A program made the position numbers and the translations under genes. A stretch of 64,000 bases of DNA, from NCBI RefSeq assembly GCF_036785885.1, contig NC_092323.1, positions 10,920,501 through 10,984,500 on the forward strand. Reading direction: 5' to 3'. Each line of letters starts with the position of its first letter. Position 1 is the first letter of the stretch. The notes beneath the pieces were generated by a model, which was not told where the DNA came from, searched no databases, and saw nothing but the letters and a program-made list of their open reading frames with translations. This document shows, piece by piece, positions 1,425 through 64,000 of this stretch. The stretch comes from Coffea arabica. Taxonomy: Eukaryota; Streptophyta; Magnoliopsida; Gentianales; Rubiaceae.

Positions 1425-1978
1425 TGTTATGGTACAGAAACCAGAGAAGCCAGGGCTTTGCAGGAATCAGAAGGGAACAAGCTCAAACTAAGAAATCAAT
1501 TATCAATGAATCAATAAAAGTGAACGAATTGAACTCCAACTTTCATTAATTGGATCTGGAAACAAATTACAAGAACAGAAATAATGGATTTAGCTAAGAA
1601 GGGGAAAGATTGAAGGAAAGTTTGAGAGGGAAAAATGAGGATTGATCCTCAAGTTAATTCAGACGAATCTGAGAGAATAATTCCTAAAAGCTACCAGAAT
1701 AGAGCAGACAAGCCTGCTTTTATTGTTAACAGACCCTAACAGAATACTAGCTAGACTAATAAGAGTAAGACACGTGTCCAAAGCATCTGCTAGTTGCCGC
1801 GCGTTTTGAATTTCTGTTGGAGTAGTTGAATCCCAGGAAAGGCGTGATTCTCTGATCACGCCTTTGATGACCTTCAGGCCCAGTGATCACGTCTTCCTCT
1901 GCTGACCTTCACGCCTCCATTGCTTCTGCTACCTAGTTCCTGCTTCTGTGTCCTTGGATAAACCCCCATTTCATTACA
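1425..1978 (-). repeat. 3' LTR of the chromovirus (554 bp)
   Basis: On the plus strand the repeat runs from TGTTATGG to CATTACA. It matches 6604-7111 almost base for base. Because the element is on the minus strand, this is its 3' LTR. It directly follows the purine-rich tract. Confidence 0.95.
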
Positions 1979-1993
1979 ATACCTCCCCCCCAT
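1979..1993 (-). other. Polypurine tract
   Basis: On the minus strand a run of seven G's followed by AGG lies directly upstream of the 3' LTR. This is the expected position for the plus-strand primer of LTR elements. Confidence 0.8.
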
Positions 1994-2055
1994 AAAAAAC
2001 CTTGTCCTCAAGGTTGAAACTGAGGAAACTTCTCCCTGATCAACAAAGCATCTTC

Positions 2056-5000
2056 CTAAGTAGCATCTGTAGGTTCAGTTCCCCACCATTGTATTAGCCA
2101 CTGGGAGACAGCAGCATTTCCTCTTTTGATCATTCTTCTTCCCAGCAACATTACTGGTTCGACCCTGAGTAATCCCTTTTCATCAGTATCTGGGAGCTGC
2201 AAGATAGGTGTGGCTTTGTTCCCCAGCTTCTTCTTCAACAGGGAAACATGGAACACAGGATGGATCCTAGATGCAGTAGGCAATTTAAGCCTGTAAGCCA
2301 CCTTACCAATCTTGCCTTCTATGAGGTAGGGACCAAAGTACTTAGCAGACAGCTTGGTATTGCTTCTCACCACCACTGATGATTGTCTATAAGGTTGTAG
2401 CCTCAAATAGACCCAATCACCTATTTGGAACTCTCTCTCACTCCTGTGTTCATCAGCATACTTTTTCATCCTCTCCTGAGCAGCCTTCAGATTTTTCTGT
2501 AGCAGATCATCCATTTGTTTCCTGTCCCTTAAGTAATCCCCCACTGTTGCCACCTTAGCTTGCTCATAGGGGCCAAGAGCTAACTGAGGGGGTTTAGATC
2601 CATACAAGGCTTCAAAAGGGGTCATCTGGATAGTAGTGTGGTGAGTAGTGTTATACCACCATTCTGCCAATGACAGCCACGTGCTCCATCTCTTGGGTTC
2701 CAAGTGAGACATACACCTGAGATACATTTCCAACACTTGGTTGACCCTCTCTGTTTGGCCATCGGTTTGAGGATGGTAGGCTATGCTCATATCCAGCCTT
2801 ACCCCCTGTAGTGTGAATAATTCAGTCCAGAACTGACTGATGAAGATTTTGTCCCTGTCTGAGACTATGCTCTGGGGCAAGCCATGCAACTTACTGATAT
2901 GATCTAGGAAGAGCCTAGCTACCTTAGGGGCATCAAAAGGGTGAGTTAGGTTCAGGAAATGTGCATACTTAGTAAACCTGTCCACCACAACCATGATGGT
3001 ATCTTTCCCTTCTGATTTGGGTAACCCCTCAATGAAATCCATGGTGATGTGACTCCAGGAGTGTTGTGGGATAGGAAGAGGTTGGAGAAGGCCTGGATAG
3101 GCCACGCGTTCATCTTTGCACCTCCTGCAAGTATCACATTGCAGTATTGTTGTTTGGATTTCTTTGAACATACCTGGCCAGTAAAACAGCTGCTTAGCCC
3201 TCATCCAACTGGCCTGTATGCCTGAATGTCCTCCTAGCTGAGAGTCATGAAGGGTAGAGATGAGTTTCTTCCTTATGTCTCCCCCCTGACCTACTACAAT
3301 TCTCCCCTTATACCTCAGAATTCCACTTTGATAGTTGTAATCTGAGCTCAGTCCTGGACAGGTGAGAAGACCCCTGATGATATCCTGTGCCCAGTCATCT
3401 CCCATATAGCTTCCTACTACCTTCTTCATCCATTCTGGAGTGACTGTGGAGGTCACAGCACATTCAGCTTCATCCCTTCCTCTCCTGGAAAGTGCATCTG
3501 CTACTACATTCTCCTTCCCCTTTTTGTAGCAGATCTCATAGCTTAACCCCATCAGTTTAGTCAGCCACTTTTGTTGGAGAGGGATTGTGATCCTCTGTTC
3601 CAGCAGGTATTTCAAGCTTTGATGGTCAGTGTTGATGATGAAATGATGTCCTTCTAAGTAGTGTCTCCACTTAGTGACTGCTGTGACCAAGGCAAGCAAC
3701 TCCTTTTCATAAATTGATAATCCCAAGTTCTTCTGTCCCAAGCTCTGACTGAGGTAAGCTATGGGTCTCCTGTTCTGCATCAAAACTGCCCCTATTCCTC
3801 CATAACAAGCATCTGTTTCGACCACAAAAGGTTGGGAGAAGTCTGGGAGGGCTAGCACAGGGGTGTTGCACATAGCTAATTTCAGCTTCTGAAAAGCATC
3901 CTCAGCTTCCTCCCCCCAGTTAAAGCCATCCTTCTTGAGGAGAGTAGTTAAGGGCTTTGCAATAGCTCCATACCCTTTGACAAATTTCCTGTAGTATCCT
4001 GTCAGTCCAAGAAATCCCTTCAGCTGTTTGGTGTTCACTGGTTTTTGCCACTGCATCATGCTGTCAATCTTCTGGGGGTCAGCCCTTACTCCTTCTGCTG
4101 AAATGATGTGGCCTAAGTACTCCACCTGTTGTTGAGCAAAAGAGCACTTACTCTCTTTTGCATAGAGCTGGTGTTGTCTCAGAATCTCCAGGACTTCAGT
4201 GACATGCTGCTCATGCTCCTTCAGAGTAGGACTGTAAATCAGAATATTATCAAAAAATATTAAAACATACTTCCTGAGTTGCTTCTGGAAAACCTGGTTC
4301 ATCAAACCTTGAAAGGTTGCAGGGGCATTGGTCAGCCCAAATGGCATGACCTTGAATTCGTATAGCCCCTGGTGTGTCCTGAAAGCTGTCTTGTGTATGT
4401 CTTCCTCTCTTACCCTTATCTGGAAGTATCCAGCTCTGAGATCAATTTTGGTGAAGTATTTGGATCCATGTAGTTCATCCAATAACTCATCAATAAGGGG
4501 CATAGGGAACTTGTTCTTGACTGTTAGATCATTGAGCTGCCTATAATCCACACAAAACCTCCATGAGCCATCCTTCTTCTTGACCAGAAGTACAGGAGAA
4601 GCAAAGGGGCTGCTGCTCAGCTGAATGATCCCAGTTTGGAGCATTTCCTGCACTAGTTTCTCAATCTCAGTTTTTTGGATGTAGGGGCACCTGTAGGGCC
4701 TTATTTGGAATGGTTTTGCCCCTTCCTTAAGAGTGATATGATGATCCTGACTCCTCTCAGGAGTTAATCCCTGTGGTTCTTGGAATACATCCCTAAATTC
4801 CTGCAACAGCTTCTCCACTTCTGGTGGGATTGGCTCCTGGACTGGTTTCTCATCCACCACTGTACTTACCTGTGCCAAGATTCCATGTGACTGCTTCCTA
4901 GTCCACTTGTACAGCCTACTTCCTCTTATCAGTTTTAACTGTACTGTACTGTCCTCCCCTTTCAGCTCTATCTGTTGCCTTTCCTTCCTGAACTTCATAC

Positions 5001-6570
5001 TCAAACTTCTGAAATCAAATTCCATGGGGTTGTACCTTGCCAACCAGTCAACTCCTAGGATCATGTCACACCCCCCTAACCTTAGTGTGTTGAACTGATG
5101 TTGGAACTCATACCCCTGCATTTTCCATGTTACTGGCTTTGTAATGTTTCTAGACTGTAGTTTTTCTCCATTCGCCACCCTTACTGAAAGAGTTCCCCAT
5201 CCTGTTCCCAACTTCAAGTTTTTGGCCATCTGTTCATCAATAAAACAGTGTGTACTGCCACTGTCTACCAATGCAACAATGGTTTTTCCCTTAATTATCC
5301 CTTTGATCCTGATGGTCCTATGTTCACTCCCCCCTGCCAAGGCATGGATGGACACTTCCATGTGTTCGTTTTCTAATTCCCCTCTAATGCAATCACAGAA
5401 CACATCAGATTCGTCCTGTTTTTCCCCCTCTATTTCAGTGGTCCCCCTCTCCTCTTCTTCCATTACCAACAAGTTTAAATGAGACTGCCTACACACATGT
5501 CCTATGGTATAAGGTTCAGCACATTTGAAGCATAGCCCCTTCTCCCTCCTAAGGTTGAGTTCTGCTGGGGTGAGTCTTTTGAACTGGTTCTGAGGATTGG
5601 TATAGTTGTTGTGTATTTTAGGAAATGATTTGTCAGGAGCTTTAGGATAGTTGGGAGGTTTGTCTGGAGGTTTTGTATAGTTTGTGGGTTTGAGTAAAGG
5701 CTTCTGGTAGTTGGGGCTGTAAGAGGTGGTCTTATGGATTTTTTGTAAGGCTCTCAGGTTCCTTTCCTGCAGTTTGGCAGCCTCTATGGCATCTGCTAGT
5801 GACTTAGGTTTGGCCATTTTTACCATAGTTACTATCTCTTCTTTCAATCCACTAAGGAAACAGGTTTTATAATAGCAATCTTGTAAATGGGGAAGAGAAG
5901 GCATTACCAAGGCTTTGAGCATTTCAAATTGCTCCAGGTAGTCAGCTATTGATCCTGTTTGCATCAGTTTATTGAATTCCTCTATAGCTTCCTCAGGAGA
6001 GCCATCACCAAATCTTTCGCATAGTGCATTGCAGAACTCCTCCCATGGAACAGCATCTCTGCCACCAAACACTCCATGGAACCATATATCTGCTTTATCT
6101 CTGAGGTAGAGCTCTGCAACCTCAGATTTCATCTCCTCATCCACTCCATTGATCTTAAAGTATTTGTTGGCCTTCCTAATCCACTCCCTTGGGTTCTCCC
6201 TATTGAATGCTGGCAGATCTACCTTAGGTAACCTGGAGAGTATTCGGTTCTCTCTGATTTCAGATCTATCCTGGACCCCTTTCTGCCCCTCTCTCCTTCT
6301 GCTACCTTCCTGGTGTCCTGGTTCTGGCACTGAGCTGCCGCCTGCCAGATCCTTCTCTTTGTCATTTAGTTTTGCTAATACTTGCGCCATCATGTTCATC
6401 ATGCCTTCATACTTCTGATCCAAACTTTTGAGAGCCTTCTCAGTGCCCTCCTGCCTGTGCTCCATAATCCTTACAGCCTGTTCTATTCCATCACTCCTGT
6501 TAGCAAAAGTTCTTACTACACTTCCCAATTCTATCACTTCCTTCCTCAACTCATCCTGATTTTTAGCCAT
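2056..6570 (-). CDS. Gag-Pol polyprotein of the Ty3/Gypsy chromovirus
   Basis: This is one continuous frame of about 1,504 residues. The frame is open from 6603, but that part overlaps the primer-binding site, so the first ATG at 6570 is the more likely start. Approximate domain order: a gag region (the GDGSPEEAIEEFNKL segment is typical), a CCHC knuckle (CFKCAEPYTIGHVC) near residue 345, a retropepsin (VDSGSTHCFID) near 430, reverse transcriptase centred near 750, and RNase H (FVVETDACYGGIGAVLMQN) near 920. The integrase zinc finger and DDE core occupy about 1100-1300, and a C-terminal chromodomain-like segment follows. It belongs to the element and not to the host. Confidence 0.92.
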   Translation of the reverse strand: MAKNQDELRKEVIELGSVVRTFANRSDGIEQAVRIMEHRQEGTEKALKSLDQKYEGMMNMMAQVLAKLNDKEKDLAGGSSVPEPGHQEGSRRREGQKGVQDRSEIRENRILSRLPKVDLPAFNRENPREWIRKANKYFKINGVDEEMKSEVAELYLRDKADIWFHGVFGGRDAVPWEEFCNALCERFGDGSPEEAIEEFNKLMQTGSIADYLEQFEMLKALVMPSLPHLQDCYYKTCFLSGLKEEIVTMVKMAKPKSLADAIEAAKLQERNLRALQKIHKTTSYSPNYQKPLLKPTNYTKPPDKPPNYPKAPDKSFPKIHNNYTNPQNQFKRLTPAELNLRREKGLCFKCAEPYTIGHVCRQSHLNLLVMEEEERGTTEIEGEKQDESDVFCDCIRGELENEHMEVSIHALAGGSEHRTIRIKGIIKGKTIVALVDSGSTHCFIDEQMAKNLKLGTGWGTLSVRVANGEKLQSRNITKPVTWKMQGYEFQHQFNTLRLGGCDMILGVDWLARYNPMEFDFRSLSMKFRKERQQIELKGEDSTVQLKLIRGSRLYKWTRKQSHGILAQVSTVVDEKPVQEPIPPEVEKLLQEFRDVFQEPQGLTPERSQDHHITLKEGAKPFQIRPYRCPYIQKTEIEKLVQEMLQTGIIQLSSSPFASPVLLVKKKDGSWRFCVDYRQLNDLTVKNKFPMPLIDELLDELHGSKYFTKIDLRAGYFQIRVREEDIHKTAFRTHQGLYEFKVMPFGLTNAPATFQGLMNQVFQKQLRKYVLIFFDNILIYSPTLKEHEQHVTEVLEILRQHQLYAKESKCSFAQQQVEYLGHIISAEGVRADPQKIDSMMQWQKPVNTKQLKGFLGLTGYYRKFVKGYGAIAKPLTTLLKKDGFNWGEEAEDAFQKLKLAMCNTPVLALPDFSQPFVVETDACYGGIGAVLMQNRRPIAYLSQSLGQKNLGLSIYEKELLALVTAVTKWRHYLEGHHFIINTDHQSLKYLLEQRITIPLQQKWLTKLMGLSYEICYKKGKENVVADALSRRGRDEAECAVTSTVTPEWMKKVVGSYMGDDWAQDIIRGLLTCPGLSSDYNYQSGILRYKGRIVVGQGGDIRKKLISTLHDSQLGGHSGIQASWMRAKQLFYWPGMFKEIQTTILQCDTCRRCKDERVAYPGLLQPLPIPQHSWSHITMDFIEGLPKSEGKDTIMVVVDRFTKYAHFLNLTHPFDAPKVARLFLDHISKLHGLPQSIVSDRDKIFISQFWTELFTLQGVRLDMSIAYHPQTDGQTERVNQVLEMYLRCMSHLEPKRWSTWLSLAEWWYNTTHHTTIQMTPFEALYGSKPPQLALGPYEQAKVATVGDYLRDRKQMDDLLQKNLKAAQERMKKYADEHRSEREFQIGDWVYLRLQPYRQSSVVVRSNTKLSAKYFGPYLIEGKIGKVAYRLKLPTASRIHPVFHVSLLKKKLGNKATPILQLPDTDEKGLLRVEPVMLLGRRMIKRGNAAVSQWLIQWWGTEPTDAT

Positions 6571-6590
6571 TTCCCAATGGCTCGTAGCTA

Positions 6591-6602
6591 GCTCTGATAC
6601 CA
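6591..6602 (-). other. Primer-binding site (tRNA-Met type)
   Basis: On the minus strand TGGTATCAGAGC follows the end of the 5' LTR after one base. This is the usual initiator-methionine tRNA primer site of plant Ty3/Gypsy and Ty1/Copia elements. Confidence 0.9.
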
Positions 6603-6603
6603 C

Positions 6604-7111
6604 TGTTATGGTACAGAAACCAGAAAAGCCAGGGCTTTGCAGGAATCAGAAGGGAACAAGCTCAAACTAAGAAATCAATTATCAATGAATCAATAAAAGT
6701 GAACGAATTGAACTCCAACTTTCATTAATTGGATCTGGAAACAAATTACAAGAACAGAAATAATGGATTTAGCTAAGAAGGGGAAAGATTGAAGGAAAGT
6801 TTGAGAGGGAAAAATGAGGATTGATCCTCAAGTTAATTCAGACGAATCTGAGAGAATAATTCCTAAAAGCTACCAGAATAGAGCAGACAAGCCTGCTTTT
6901 ATTGTTAACAGACCCTAACAGAATACTAGCTAGACTAATAAGAGTAAGACACGTGTCCAAAGCATCTGCTAGTTGCCGCGCGTTTTGAATTTCTGTTTGA
7001 TGACCTTCAGGCCCAGTGATCACGTCTTCCTCTGCTGACCTTCACGCCTCCATTGCTTCTGCTACCTAGTTCCTGCTTCTGTGTCCTTGGATAAACCCCC
7101 ATTTCATTACA
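6604..7111 (-). repeat. 5' LTR of the chromovirus (508 bp)
   Basis: It is almost identical to 1425-1978 apart from being about 46 bp shorter. It is bounded by TG...CA and followed on the plus strand by the ATTGG duplication (7112-7116). By position it would carry the element's promoter. No regulatory site beyond that can be supported. Confidence 0.95.
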
Positions 7112-22390: not shown

Positions 22391-23654
22391 TATAAAATGT
22401 GAATGCCCATGCAGCATTAAAAGCATGTAAATTGTAGTTGGGATTGTTGATAAGTAAATTTAGATCAGAAATAATATCGGAGGTATATGGTTTGGTTAAC
22501 AACCGAAAACCATGGGAGAAATGTAAAAAGCTAACTAATTTGGTAATCAAAGATACTAATATGTTAAAGGTGAAATGTATGACGCCATGGATACATGATT
22601 TCTATGCCGTTGATTCCGAAAATTAAAACAGAAGGAAGCTCTACTGGAAAGTACAAAGACAGGGGGAAAATATAAAAAAAAGGTTCAAGCAAAGAAGAAA
22701 AATAAAGTAGCAAGCGTACATAACAACATAAATAAAGGATGCAAGAGGCATGCAGAAAAGCTCCACGCACCAACCTGATGGCAAGAAAGTCTGCTTGACT
22801 CTGGAGGAAGTAGAAGAAACAAAGAAAGGGAAGAAACCCAGATAAAGCAGAAGGCTTAATAGAACATTGTAAGCACACTGGCCGAGGCAGGCAACGGAAA
22901 AAAAAAAAAAAAAAAAAAACAGGCATGGGTACTTTCTTTAGCAACTATCCATGCAATGCAGTTTAAAAGTAGCAAAGCGCTGACCTTTTTTTTCCTCTGC
23001 ATAGCTGCTGCCATGAAACGAAGATCCATGCAAAGAAGGTTAAAACCAGTAAACAGCTGACCTTTTTTTCCATATGAATGACTATTGACATTGCACAAAA
23101 ACTGGTAAAGCTCGATAGAAGCAACTAAGGCAAAACTGAACACTGCAAAGAACAATGGCTCTGATGATGATGGAAAGACGTGCGATCTATTCAAAGCTCA
23201 GAGTATGGGCTACCAGACGTGGATGCTTCATGCAACACTCGGATCTTTATTGTTTATCAAGAAATTTCTGGCTAATCAATCAGAGCAACATTTGTATATT
23301 GGTAATAAAATAAAATTCGCGTCAATCAGCTCTTATCTGACAATGAAGCGCAGCTTAGTTAATAAAACGTGTTATTTATAGTCGATGGGTCATTATTGTT
23401 GATTCTCTTTTTTTTAAAAAAAAAATGAAACAAAATCCATTTTTTATTTAGTCGAATAAATTTCTTGTCTTTACGAGTACGCGACTTGTTTGCAATCACA
23501 TTAAATTGATAAGTAAATCCAAACAATAATATGAACCCACAACCAACATAAAATAGAAGACAAACCACAACCAACATTGAATTGAATGCATGACACATAA
23601 CTGAATGATCAAATGATTATTAAAAAAGAAAAAAAGAAAACCAACAGTAAATGA

Positions 23655-44559: not shown

Positions 44560-44669
44560 AAAAAATGGATCAGATTTCTGGCTTGATTTCTCGAAAAAGA
44601 GAAATTTAATGGTAGCACAGTATAATCAGCTTCGATCATCTGGGGAAATAATCATCACATCCATTTTTT
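44560..44669 (-). ncRNA. C/D-box snoRNA candidate, copy 2
   Basis: On the minus strand the boxes are C TGATGA (44652-44657), D' CTGA after ATGATCGAAG, and D CTGA (44570-44573). The flanks AAAAAATGGA (5') and TCCATTTTTT (3') form a perfect 10-bp terminal stem. The C and D boxes sit just inside it, as the family requires. It shares its 5' half, including CCCCAGATGATCGAA upstream of D', with copy 1. C/D snoRNAs guide 2'-O-methylation of rRNA or snRNA, and the target here was not identified. No protein frame explains the conservation. Confidence 0.65.
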
Positions 44670-44841: not shown

Positions 44842-44960
44842 GGAGATGGATCAGACAAATCTGGCTTGGATTATCTCCAGAAAACTGGAGAAAACACAAA
44901 TAAAGCGCTCGGTAATTTCAGTTTCGATCATCTGGGGAAAAAATCATCACTTCCATCCCC
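44842..44960 (-). ncRNA. C/D-box snoRNA candidate, copy 1
   Basis: On the minus strand C box TGATGA (44944-44949), D' CTGA after GATCGAAA, and D CTGA (44851-44854) lie inside a 9-bp terminal stem. The stem is GGGGATGGA pairing with TCCATCTCC, with one G-U pair. The candidate guide CCCCAGATGATCGAA ends at D' and is shared with copy 2. Upstream of D both copies carry AAGCCAGA. The two copies have diverged elsewhere but each kept its own pairing stem. This looks like selection on RNA structure. Confidence 0.65.
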
Positions 44961-45704: not shown

Positions 45705-46027
45705 GAGCAAATTATTTGAATGGTCACAAACTTTTGGAATGGTCAAATTTTGACCATTAAACTATCAAAAGTCTAGTTTTGACTATTAAACTATTTAAAG
45801 TTTAGATTTCAAGTCATCTCATTAGATTTAATCGTTAAATATGACAGATATAAATACTCGCGCGATTCACAAGACAAAAGAAAGCAACATAGTTAACGAC
45901 TAAATCTTATAGAATGATCCGAAATCTAAACTTTAGACAGTTTAATGGTCAAAATCAAACTTTTAATAATTCATTGGCCAAAACTTAACGATTCCGAAAG
46001 TTCAGTGGCCATACAGATAATTTGTTC
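45705..46027. mobile_element. Mutator-like MITE related to the Pack-MULE ends
   Basis: The element is 323 bp, starting GAGCAAATTATTTGAATGG and ending with the complement of GAACAAATTATCTG. Its ends share GAGCAAATTAT, the GGCCACTAAACTTT-like block, AATCGTTAA and ACAAAAGAAAG with the inverted repeats of the element at 59512-60914. The flanks CGGACTATA and TAGACTATA (45696-45704 and 46028-46036) match at 7 of 9 positions, a decayed 9-bp duplication. It is probably an older, internally deleted relative. Confidence 0.7.
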
Positions 46028-59502: not shown

Positions 59503-59511
59503 TTGTGTTTA
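59503..59511. repeat. Pack-MULE target duplication, left (TTGTGTTTA)
   Basis: TTGTGTTTA at 59503-59511 is repeated exactly at 60915-60923. The 9-bp length is diagnostic of Mutator-like elements. Confidence 0.92.
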
Positions 59512-59698
59512 GAGCAAATTATCCGGTTGGCCACTAAACTTTTACGATCGTTGAGTTTTGATCACTCAACTATTAAAAGTCTGATTTTGGCCACTAAAAT
59601 GTATAAAGTTAAGACACGAGGCCATTCTGTTAGATTTAGCCGTTAAGTTCTCTGATCTGTCTGTTCGCACGATTTTCAAGACAAAAGAAAGGGTCAAT
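59512..59698 (+). repeat. Left terminal inverted repeat of the Pack-MULE
   Basis: 187 bp, matching the complement of 60728-60914 with about six or seven mismatches. Similarity ends abruptly after GGGTCAAT. Confidence 0.92.
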
Positions 59699-60099
59699 TT
59701 AGGAATAATTTAGTCCAGGCACCATACCGCATCACTTTGTTAGGGATAATTTAGTAGTAGTTGCTACAACGACAACAACAAAGCAGTGAAAGGCAATGGA
59801 TTGGTCTTCTAATTGAATTAATTTCAATAGAATTGGGCAATAGCGATGTGTCACAGGGTCGGCTGCTGAGTCATTATCACCACCTAGTTTTCAACCATAA
59901 CCTACACAGGGAGTGCAGATGAACCACCGGCACCCCAAAAACCAAAAACAAAAAAAAAAGGAAGAAGAGGGACGATCGATAATAGTGAGATATCCAGTCT
60001 TTCAATCTACTATCTATGCTAGCCCAAATTTAATTATTAAGGAACAAAAAAAAAAGAGCAAGATCGGCGAATTTGTTCATGGACTGCTCATCCATTTAT

Positions 60100-60632
60100 G
60101 CCCTCACCACCCACCTCTCCCGGACCCTCTTCGGCAACCGCCCGTTTCATCTGAAGTCCAGCTCCCAAATGAGGACCTCGATTCACTCATCTCCGTCACC
60201 ACTGATCACGACCTCCAGAATATGCTGGAAGAGCACGACTGCATCTCCGCCGTTACATCCCCTACACCATCCTGCATCAGATTATTTCTCTTCCCCATAA
60301 AGCCAGAGTTTCCGAGTTCAGCGCTTCTTGATCCGAAAGTTGACTCGTGGTTTTCTGATGCTCTGAATAACACGAAGATTGTTTAGAGGGGTCAGTCTGC
60401 TGATGCTGCTGGTTTGGGTCAGGGACTAATGGGTTTGGATATTTTGGGTAGATCGGATTGTAATGCAGCCTTGGAGAATCCAGCTGAAAGCATGAGTAAT
60501 AATGGTGCTGAGGCTAAGGAAATCAGTGGGGCTGTGCCGGAATCGTTGGTATTAGAGAGTAGCTCGTCCTTTGGGTCAACTACTTCTTCAATTTCAATGT
60601 CAAATGAAGGCCAGCTGTTGGATCCATTGTGA
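60100..60632 (+). pseudogene. Captured PB1-domain gene fragment
   Basis: Translation gives LSRTLFGNRPFHLK, then in another frame QLPNEDLDSLISVTTDHDLQ (the acidic OPCA part of a PB1 domain) and RLFLFPIKPEFPSSALLDPK. After a TAG at 60384-60386 the same frame continues with GQGLMGLDILGRSD and SLVLESSSSFGSTTSSISMS. Plant PB1 proteins of unknown function share these blocks in this order. The frame change near 60160 and the stop show that the copy is no longer a full coding gene. The parental gene is not in this window. Confidence 0.75.
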
Positions 60633-60727
60633 GGATGGGAGCTTCAGTTTGTTCGAGAGGAAGCTCAGAGTACCCTCCTAAACTTTTTGTTTTTCAAGAG
60701 GTGCAAGTGCTATTTTCAACTTCCCAT

Positions 60728-60914
60728 ATTGACCCTTTCTTTTGTCTTGGAAATCGTGCGGACAGACAGATCTGAGAACTTAACGGCTAAATCTAACAGA
60801 ATGGCCTCGTGTCTTAACTTTATACATTTTAGTGGCCAAAACCAGACTTTTAATAGTTGAGTGACCAAAACTCAACGATCGTAAAAGTTTAGTGGTCAAC
60901 CGGATAATTTGCTC
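60728..60914 (-). repeat. Right terminal inverted repeat of the Pack-MULE
   Basis: 187 bp, inverted relative to 59512-59698. It is followed directly by the TTGTGTTTA duplication at 60915-60923. Confidence 0.92.
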
Positions 60915-60923
60915 TTGTGTTTA

Positions 60924-61421: not shown

Positions 61422-61758
61422 TGTCAGGAACTCAGAAGTTAGCTATTGTCGTTTTATTCACATTGTTTAGCGTTTGGTAGGCGCAGGACACAGACACCAA
61501 AAACGGTGTCGTTCAGCTAAGTGACAGTTAGTAGTTAATAAAGGCGGTTACAGCTTAATTGCATAAATAACCCACCGAATGATTGTAATAGGCAGTTAGG
61601 ATTTTATTTGTTTGAAATCAACAAACTCCAACATTTCCCTCTTTCTGTTAATTCCCTCTCTCTCTTCCTATACCTACTTTTCTCTCTTTCTTCCCTTTCT
61701 GTTATCTTTTCCGGTGACTATTGAAGCCATTGTGGCAGTGCTAGCTCAGAGCCTGACA
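61422..61758 (+). repeat. 5' LTR of the second Ty3/Gypsy element
   Basis: It begins TGTCAGG and ends CCTGACA, a perfect 7-bp inverted end pair. It is followed two bases later by TGGTATCAGAAC. Length 337 bp. Confidence 0.85.
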
Positions 61759-61760
61759 GT

Positions 61761-61772
61761 TGGTATCAGAAC
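61761..61772 (+). other. Primer-binding site of the second element
   Basis: TGGTATCAGAAC resembles the tRNA-Met primer site TGGTATCAGAGC and has the right position directly after the LTR. Confidence 0.8.
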
Positions 61773-61807
61773 AGCCGATCCTTGGCTGCTAAGGAAGAAG
61801 GACTGCC

Positions 61808-64000
61808 ATGGCGGAAGGCACGAGATACCGATCCTTGGAAGATCAGCTGAAGAAACAAGAGAGTAAGCTCCAGGAATTGGCCGAATCCATGGCCGCTCTG
61901 CATACGTCCGGGCAGAATGAGTTACGGCAGAGACTCCAGGAGGAAATGGAGAAGAGCAACTCGAGACTGGAGACGGTGGTGGGAAATCTGGACCAGAAAT
62001 TCTGCAAGTTGGAGCAAAAGTTCAGCGTGTTAATGAAAGTGATGATGAAGGACAAGGGAGTTCAGGAGAACGAAGGAGGATCCTCCGAACCTCTTCTACC
62101 TACACCACCCTCGCATTTCCGACTGGCGGCTCAGGCTGAAATGGCAGGCCATCAGCAGGAATCCAGAGGTAGGATGTTTACTCCCAATGTGCCTAGATTA
62201 GATTTGCCGATGTTTACGGCAGGGAATCCAAGGGAATGGCTTAGGAAATATCATAAATATTTTTTGAACTACCAAATACCTGCTTGCTAGAAAGTAGATT
62301 TAGTGGAGATGTTCTTAGAAGGCAAAGCCGATAATTGATTCCAAGGGGTGAAATTAGCTAAACCTGGGCTAAATTGGGAAGAGTTTAGTGAGTTGCTATG
62401 TGAGCGTTTCTCTGGAAAGGGGTCACTTGACATAGTAGAAGAATTTAACAAACTGCAACAAGTGGGGACAGTGGAGGAGTATGAGGAAAAATTTGAGGAA
62501 TTAAAAACTCTGATGTTGACCAAGAACCCCAGATTAGATGAGTCCTATTTTGTTTCCAGCTTTATCAGTGGGTTGAAAGAGGAGATCAAGCCCATGGTAA
62601 AGATGTTTAGACCAAAGCATTTGAGGTAGCAGAGTTGCAAGAGTATGCACTGGCGGTGCAATGTAAGCAGACCAAAAATTCTGGCAGGATTGCCATGGAG
62701 CCTAAGTTTGGGATGTACAAGGGCCAATTTGGTGGGCAGAACTTACCTAGTTCTTACAGGCTGCCTGCGATAACTCCTAACACTAAGAGGACTGAAAATG
62801 CACACAAGGAGGTAGGAAGACTTTCAGCATAAGAGCTGCAGTACAGGCGCAAAAATAACCTGTGCTACAGGTGTGGAGAGAAGTTTGGGTTGGGGCATCA
62901 GTGTAGGACAAAAGGTCTGAACTGCCTTAGTGTGGAAGAAGAAGAGGAGACTGATTTTGAGGATGCAGTGGGGGAACAGGATGAGTTTACTGGTAGAGTT
63001 GGGGAGATGGCTGAAGTATCATTGAATGCCTTGTCTGGTGCTATTCAGAGGAAGTCCATCATGCTGATTGGCAGTATTGGTGGCTTACCAATCAAAATAC
63101 TAGTGGACACCGGGAGTTCTGACAGTTTCATCAACCATAGACTTGTTACCTTACTGCACTTACCTTATCAATCTGTGAATCCTTTTACTGTGACTTTACC
63201 GAATGGGACAGACATCACCAGTGGGACAGCCTGTCCTAAAGTAGCTTGGAGGATACAAGACTACCAATTTCAGTTTGACATGAAGATAATGGAACTAGGA
63301 AATTGGGATATCATCCTGGGAGTTGATTGGATGTGTCAGTTCAGTCCAATCACCTTTGACTTCCACACTCTCAGTATCGCACTCAGTGATCGAGGGCAAT
63401 TACTTCACCTCCAAGGGTTCATAAATCAACCTACGATGGAGCTTGTGAGGAGAAAGGATCTCAGATCCTTCATCCAAGAAAAAAAGAGGAGCTGTGCACA
63501 CCTGCAGGCGAACTCCACCAAAGACCTTCAGAAAGACATCCCAGAGCTAGTGGAACAAGTTTTACAGCAGTTTCCACAGATATTTGCTACTCCAACGGGA
63601 CTGCCTCCAGAAAGGGAGCTGGATCACCAAATCCCTCTCAAACCAGGGGCAGAACCATTTAAACTCAAGCCTTACAGGTACCCCCACTCCCATAAAGCAG
63701 AAATTGAGAAGCAGGTTGTAGAAATGCTTACGAATGGGATTGTTAAACACAGTACTAGTCCTTTTGCTTCCCCTGTCTTGTTGGTTAAAAAGAAAGATAG
63801 TACTTGGAGACTATGTATAGATTACAGGAAGCTAAATGAGGTGACTGTCAAGGATAGATTTCCCATCCCCAATATTGATGAATTGCTAGATGAGTTACAT
63901 GGCACCAAGTATATGTCTAAGTTGGACCTCAGGGCTGGGTACCATCAGTTGAGGGTCAAGGTAGCAGACACTCCCAAGACTGCTTTCCAAACACACCATG
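61808..64000 (+). pseudogene. Gag-Pol region of the second Ty3/Gypsy element (broken, incomplete)
   Basis: The gag starts MAEGTRYRSLEDQLKKQESK, with a coiled-coil-like N-terminus. Downstream are a retroviral gag block (FNKLQQVGTVEEYEEKFEEL, about 62445-62505), a CCHC knuckle near 62860, a retropepsin motif [11 protein letters not shown] near 63100-63135, and reverse transcriptase from about 63590 ([20 protein letters not shown]) to the window edge. A few breaks interrupt the coding sequence. RNase H and integrase would lie outside the window. Confidence 0.9.

Follow-up and report, generated by a model that had tools for sequence, protein, structure and literature searches.

A very probable Pack-MULE with 194-bp terminal inverted repeats around a disabled part of a PB1-domain gene

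Introduction

Mutator-like elements (MULEs) are moved by a transposase that binds their long terminal inverted repeats (TIRs), and each insertion leaves a 9-bp duplication of the target. In the TIR-MULE class, these repeats are at least about 100 bp long. Where an element lacks the transposase gene it is mobilised in trans, and Pack-MULEs are such elements with host sequences enclosed by the TIRs. MULEs are characterised in excerpts of PMC3310237 by target duplications of 9-11 bp, long TIRs and promoters within the TIRs; Table 4 of the same article lists 2853 Pack-MULEs for rice and 220 for tomato, and the commonest size in tomato is given there as 1000-1200 bp. A passage of PMC13317346 puts the number described in rice at over 3,000, and in another, sequences captured in maize by Pack-MULEs, Helitrons and Sireviruses are presented as reservoirs of siRNA able to silence the genes they came from. 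Pack-TYPE elements are classed, in the part of PMC8903248 that we draw on, by a match to a coding gene without a match to a transposase, and the duplication length stated there is 8 bp for hAT and 5 bp for CACTA elements. In the literature searched, one article, PMC8616336, by its title a general one on transposable elements, contains both "Pack-MULE" and "PB1 domain", which is no proof of novelty for an element that combines the two.

Here we describe such an element in a 64-kb stretch of DNA, which we refer to as the window. The interval 59512-60914 very probably represents a non-autonomous MULE, a Pack-MULE, carrying part of a host PB1-domain gene.

Results

Element boundaries

The element proper spans 59512-60914 (1403 bp). 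Its parts and the flanking target site are as follows, in window coordinates.

59503-59511, unstranded: target site duplication, left copy, 9 bp, TTGTGTTTA
59512-59705, plus strand: left terminal inverted repeat, 194 bp, starting GAGCAAATTATCC
59706-60111, unstranded: internal stretch from the left TIR to the start of the PB1 match, without a Pfam match and present in the window as a single copy
60112-60156, plus strand: putatively captured PB1 coding sequence, first piece before the frameshift, its left edge set at profile position 30, where the Pfam match starts
60159-60383, plus strand: putatively captured PB1 coding sequence, main piece after the frameshift, reaching PB1 position 83 and ending at the TAG at 60384-60386
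60387-60629, plus strand: open continuation of the PB1 frame past the TAG, to the TGA at 60630-60632, with no Pfam match of its own
60633-60720, unstranded: internal stretch beside the right TIR, without a Pfam match and present in the window as a single copy
60721-60914, minus strand: right terminal inverted repeat, 194 bp, identical to the left one at 186/194 positions
60915-60923, unstranded: target site duplication, right copy, 9 bp, TTGTGTTTA

The two TIR arms align without gaps over their full 194 bp with 8 mismatches, corresponding to an identity of 95.9%. Their local alignment score of 348 compares with a maximum of 29 among 500 pairs of first-order Markov resamplings. Directly abutting the arms, TTGTGTTTA is exact over 9 bp on both sides, and the repeat search gives 195 nt instead of 194 because one A/T pair of this target duplication matches by chance. 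Identical 9-mers at the same spacing were found at 2 of 62,579 window positions, the TTGTGTTTA pair necessarily being one of them. The 9-bp duplication lies within the 9-11 bp, and the 194-bp arms within the long TIRs, by which MULEs are recognised. The initial annotation had placed the feature at 59503-60923, an interval that covers the element and also includes both target copies. Its perfect 9-bp duplication and its TIR identity of about 96% are reproduced by our values, and its 187-bp ends are slightly short. The TIR divergence (8/194) was not used as a clock.

Captured PB1 sequence

Of the stop-to-stop frames in the element, the longest has 161 codons (59901-60386). It matches the Pfam PB1 family (PF00564) from profile position 37 to 83 of 84 with an E value of 1.9e-8 and a score of 34.6 bits, compared with a curated cut-off of 23.6. 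A joint scan of this frame and the one upstream of it, in which an X marked the break, gave a match over positions 30-83 of 84 with an E value of 2e-10 and 40.9 bits. Adding the upstream frame moves the start of the match from profile position 37 to position 30, and because the two frames extend one PB1 domain, they point to a single coding sequence that a frameshift near 60157 has split. The profile match starts near 60112, which is residue 15 of the read-through that was scanned, leaving the first 29 of the 84 profile positions unmatched. At the other end, the frame is interrupted by an in-frame TAG at 60384, after which it stays open to 60629 and meets a TGA at 60630. Judging from the shared frame, 60387-60629 probably also derives from an exon of the parent. 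On the left side, captured coding sequence may begin as early as about 60079, in the last part of the stretch 59706-60111. The fragment of a non-transposon host gene that defines a Pack-MULE is represented here by the PB1 domain, PF00564. The PB1 gene piece of the initial annotation is accordingly upheld by the Pfam match (E 2e-10) as to its identity, in a form broken by a frameshift (about 60157) and a stop (60384).

The composition of the cargo was also considered. Its G+C content (60080-60630) is 0.49; the two TIRs have 0.37 and 0.39, and the flanks 0.38-0.39. MULE-derived genes are described as G+C-rich in a passage of PMC4858842; the excess seen here is a weak sign of such a gene, coding DNA being G+C-richer anyway. 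A codon-usage profile built from 1268 window codons did not mark the limits of the cargo: a minus-strand frame scores above the PB1 frame in segments starting from 60010 to 60250, and another plus-strand frame does so in segments starting from 60460. Two Pfam matches in other frames (E 0.16 and 0.14) fell below their cut-offs and were dropped.

A Pfam scan of all six frames of 59512-60914, with stops as X, returned PB1 as the only family at E up to 1 and no transposase family, in line with the absence of transposase noted initially. In a tblastn search of the full 64-kb window with the three PB1 pieces, no match apart from the pieces themselves was better than E 0.19. The initial annotation had named as its own refutation a PB1 piece belonging to a longer host gene that continues beyond the TIRs, and the tblastn search brought up no such gene within the window. 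The interior, 59706-60720, matched only itself in the window at E up to 1e-3. A search of the PDB by sequence returned no match at a threshold of E 10. A pattern from one TIR had 0 matches in viral_contigs, a collection that is uninformative for a plant element. A PB1 peptide pattern hit 12 stretches in the same viral collection and 94 in the prokaryotic collection genome_contigs, with 0 confirmed in either, both collections being silent on plants.

A second member of the TIR family

The ends of the Pack-MULE recur at one further site in the window.

45705-46027, unstranded: second member of the Pack-MULE's TIR family, a 323-bp cargo-less hairpin flanked by CGGACTATA and TAGACTATA

This element starts GAGCAAATTAT, has its ends in common with the Pack-MULE at 59512-60914, and consists of two arms that nearly abut. 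Using the left TIR alone, blastn detected 45705-45884 and, inverted, 45893-46024, with E values of 5e-9 and 5e-19, respectively. The nhmmer matches to the two arms are stronger (E 5e-44 and 5e-40), the model having been built partly from those arms; a fifth nhmmer match (E 0.027), inside 45705-46027, was left out of the count. We also set aside weak blastn rows: a 13-base match to the TIR, and mostly A-rich matches near element positions 423-457 and 528-548. The flanking sequences CGGACTATA and TAGACTATA agree at 7 of 9 positions, an imperfect duplication that was spotted by eye; a scripted scan around the element, which accepted up to one mismatch in pairs of 9-11 bases and none in pairs of 8, found no duplication. 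In an alignment of the four TIRs, invariant columns are densest in about the first 135 positions. The second element is the more diverged member, with a similar TIR body. The window thus holds one further copy of the family with a different target duplication (7/9), and shared ends at two sites that differ in target sequence support a transposon family, not a chance inverted repeat. When folded as RNA, 45705-46027 has a predicted free energy of -115.5 kcal/mol (z -14.5), and none of 100 shuffles was equally stable.

The observed/expected CpG ratio is 1.05 and 0.94 in the two TIRs of the Pack-MULE, compared with 0.37 and 0.39 in two flank stretches; it is 1.15 in the diverged relative at 45705-46027 and 0.47 in the window. 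We rejected CpG content as a sign of age, since the diverged relative is high as well. CpG retention looks like a feature of the TIR family, not a clock.

Other features of the window

An apparently full-length LTR retrotransposon lies at 1425-7111 with a 5-bp target duplication, ATTGG, and a 1529-codon minus-strand frame (2056-6645) that appears gag-pol-like by eye. Over 510 aligned bases, a single mismatch and one 46-bp indel separate its LTRs, and it is likely a recent insertion. The start of a second, probable LTR retrotransposon is found at 61422-64000, where it is cut by the window end. It comprises an LTR-like sequence at 61422-61758 (TGTCAGG...CCTGACA), a primer-binding-like TGGTATCAGA at 61761, and a gag-like frame from 61793 with no Pfam match.

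Two C/D-box snoRNA genes of snoZ103, which we take to be a plant snoRNA, are on the minus strand at 44565-44664 and 44846-44956, above the Rfam gathering score. A tRNA scan of the 64-kb window found 0 genes. At 22947-23091 there are two copies of a 68-bp direct repeat, 75% identical and 77 bp apart from start to start. The host is judged to be a flowering plant. Pfam matches at E up to 0.001 were obtained in 6 of the 10 window frames scanned. The families recorded in the window are AMP-binding enzyme, glutathione S-transferase C-terminal domain, Rubisco LSMT substrate-binding, galactosyltransferase, squalene/phytoene synthase (below its cut-off) and glycosyl transferase group 1, the last in a frame that is presumably sucrose-synthase-like.

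Discussion

The initial annotation had read this locus as a Pack-MULE. Its TIRs, target duplication, gene-fragment cargo and lack of a detected transposase are direct observations, as are the PB1 homology, the disabled frame and the second same-ended element. The element is assigned to the Mutator superfamily by the length of its TIRs and its 9-bp duplication; homology to a known MULE transposase plays no part in the assignment.

The following origin would account for these features. At some point, a Pack-MULE would have acquired part of a PB1-domain host gene between its 194-bp TIRs, presumably by copying from the parent gene elsewhere. The element would have inserted at 59503-59511, where the transposase, probably supplied in trans by an autonomous relative, would have left the 9-bp target duplication. 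The cargo would now be a passenger pseudogene without protein function.

A further reading, which takes up a suggestion of the initial annotation, adds to this explanation and does not replace it: the cargo would be transcribed and give rise to antisense or small RNA, by which the activity of the PB1 parent would be reduced. We consider this role improbable. The siRNA-reservoir sequences captured in maize offer a precedent (a passage of PMC13317346), TIR promoters are stated to express Pack-MULE interiors (an excerpt of PMC3310237), and the cargo-less relative at 45705-46027 is predicted to fold into a long RNA hairpin at -115.5 kcal/mol. Set against these points, pseudogenisation or loss is the commonest fate of captured sequences in the account excerpted from PMC13317346. 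Trans-silencing of the parent moreover depends on identity between cargo and parent, for which long identical stretches are needed. The more specific proposal, that the PB1 piece is transcribed from the TIR promoters and that small RNAs measurably silence or methylate the PB1 parent, would be slightly less probable again. If true, it would make the element an active trans-regulator, not a passenger.

Three other readings compete with the main explanation. The element could belong to a different superfamily of TIR elements, such as hAT or CACTA, as it contains no transposase for direct classification. We regard this as very unlikely, because the 9-bp duplication and the 194-bp TIRs fit a MULE and not a hAT (8 bp) or CACTA (5 bp) element, and the termini start GAGC, not CACTA. 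Even less credence is given to the cargo being a functional novel gene that expresses a truncated PB1 protein. The 161-codon frame at 59901-60386 does cover PB1 positions 37-83; however, the frameshift at about 60157 splits the PB1 region, the TAG at 60384 breaks the frame, and PB1 positions 1-29 of 84 have no match. Finally, that there is no transposon at all, and that chance or recombination made an inverted repeat around a PB1 pseudogene, is a reading in whose favour we found nothing, and it is extremely unlikely given the exact 9-bp duplication abutting the arms, the resampling controls (348 against a maximum of 29) and the second same-ended element elsewhere in the window.

The Pack-MULE at 59512-60914 is a well-preserved textbook case of the capture of a gene fragment by a Mutator-like transposon, and alone it settles no open question. 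For annotation, its use is that about 60112-60629 should not be called a PB1 gene. It is an ordinary example of a well-known element class, of which the particular instance is new.

With the Pack-MULEs of rice, maize, Arabidopsis and tomato, the element shares long TIRs, a 9-bp duplication, a host gene fragment, the lack of a transposase and a size of about 1 kb, its 1403 bp being near the commonest size of tomato Pack-MULEs; it differs from them in its cargo, here a PB1-domain gene, and in its TIR family. Pack-CACTA and other Pack-TYPE elements follow the same principle, that of a non-autonomous TIR transposon with a coding-gene fragment, as set out in a passage of PMC8903248, whereas Pack-CACTA and hAT Pack-TYPE elements have duplications of 5 bp and 8 bp, respectively, compared with 9 bp here. 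Cargo-less short MULEs of the MITE-like kind, such as 45705-46027, resemble the Pack-MULE in their TIR ends and TIR body, and this relative differs from it in being cargo-less, in its nearly abutting arms and in a target duplication that agrees at 7 of 9 positions.
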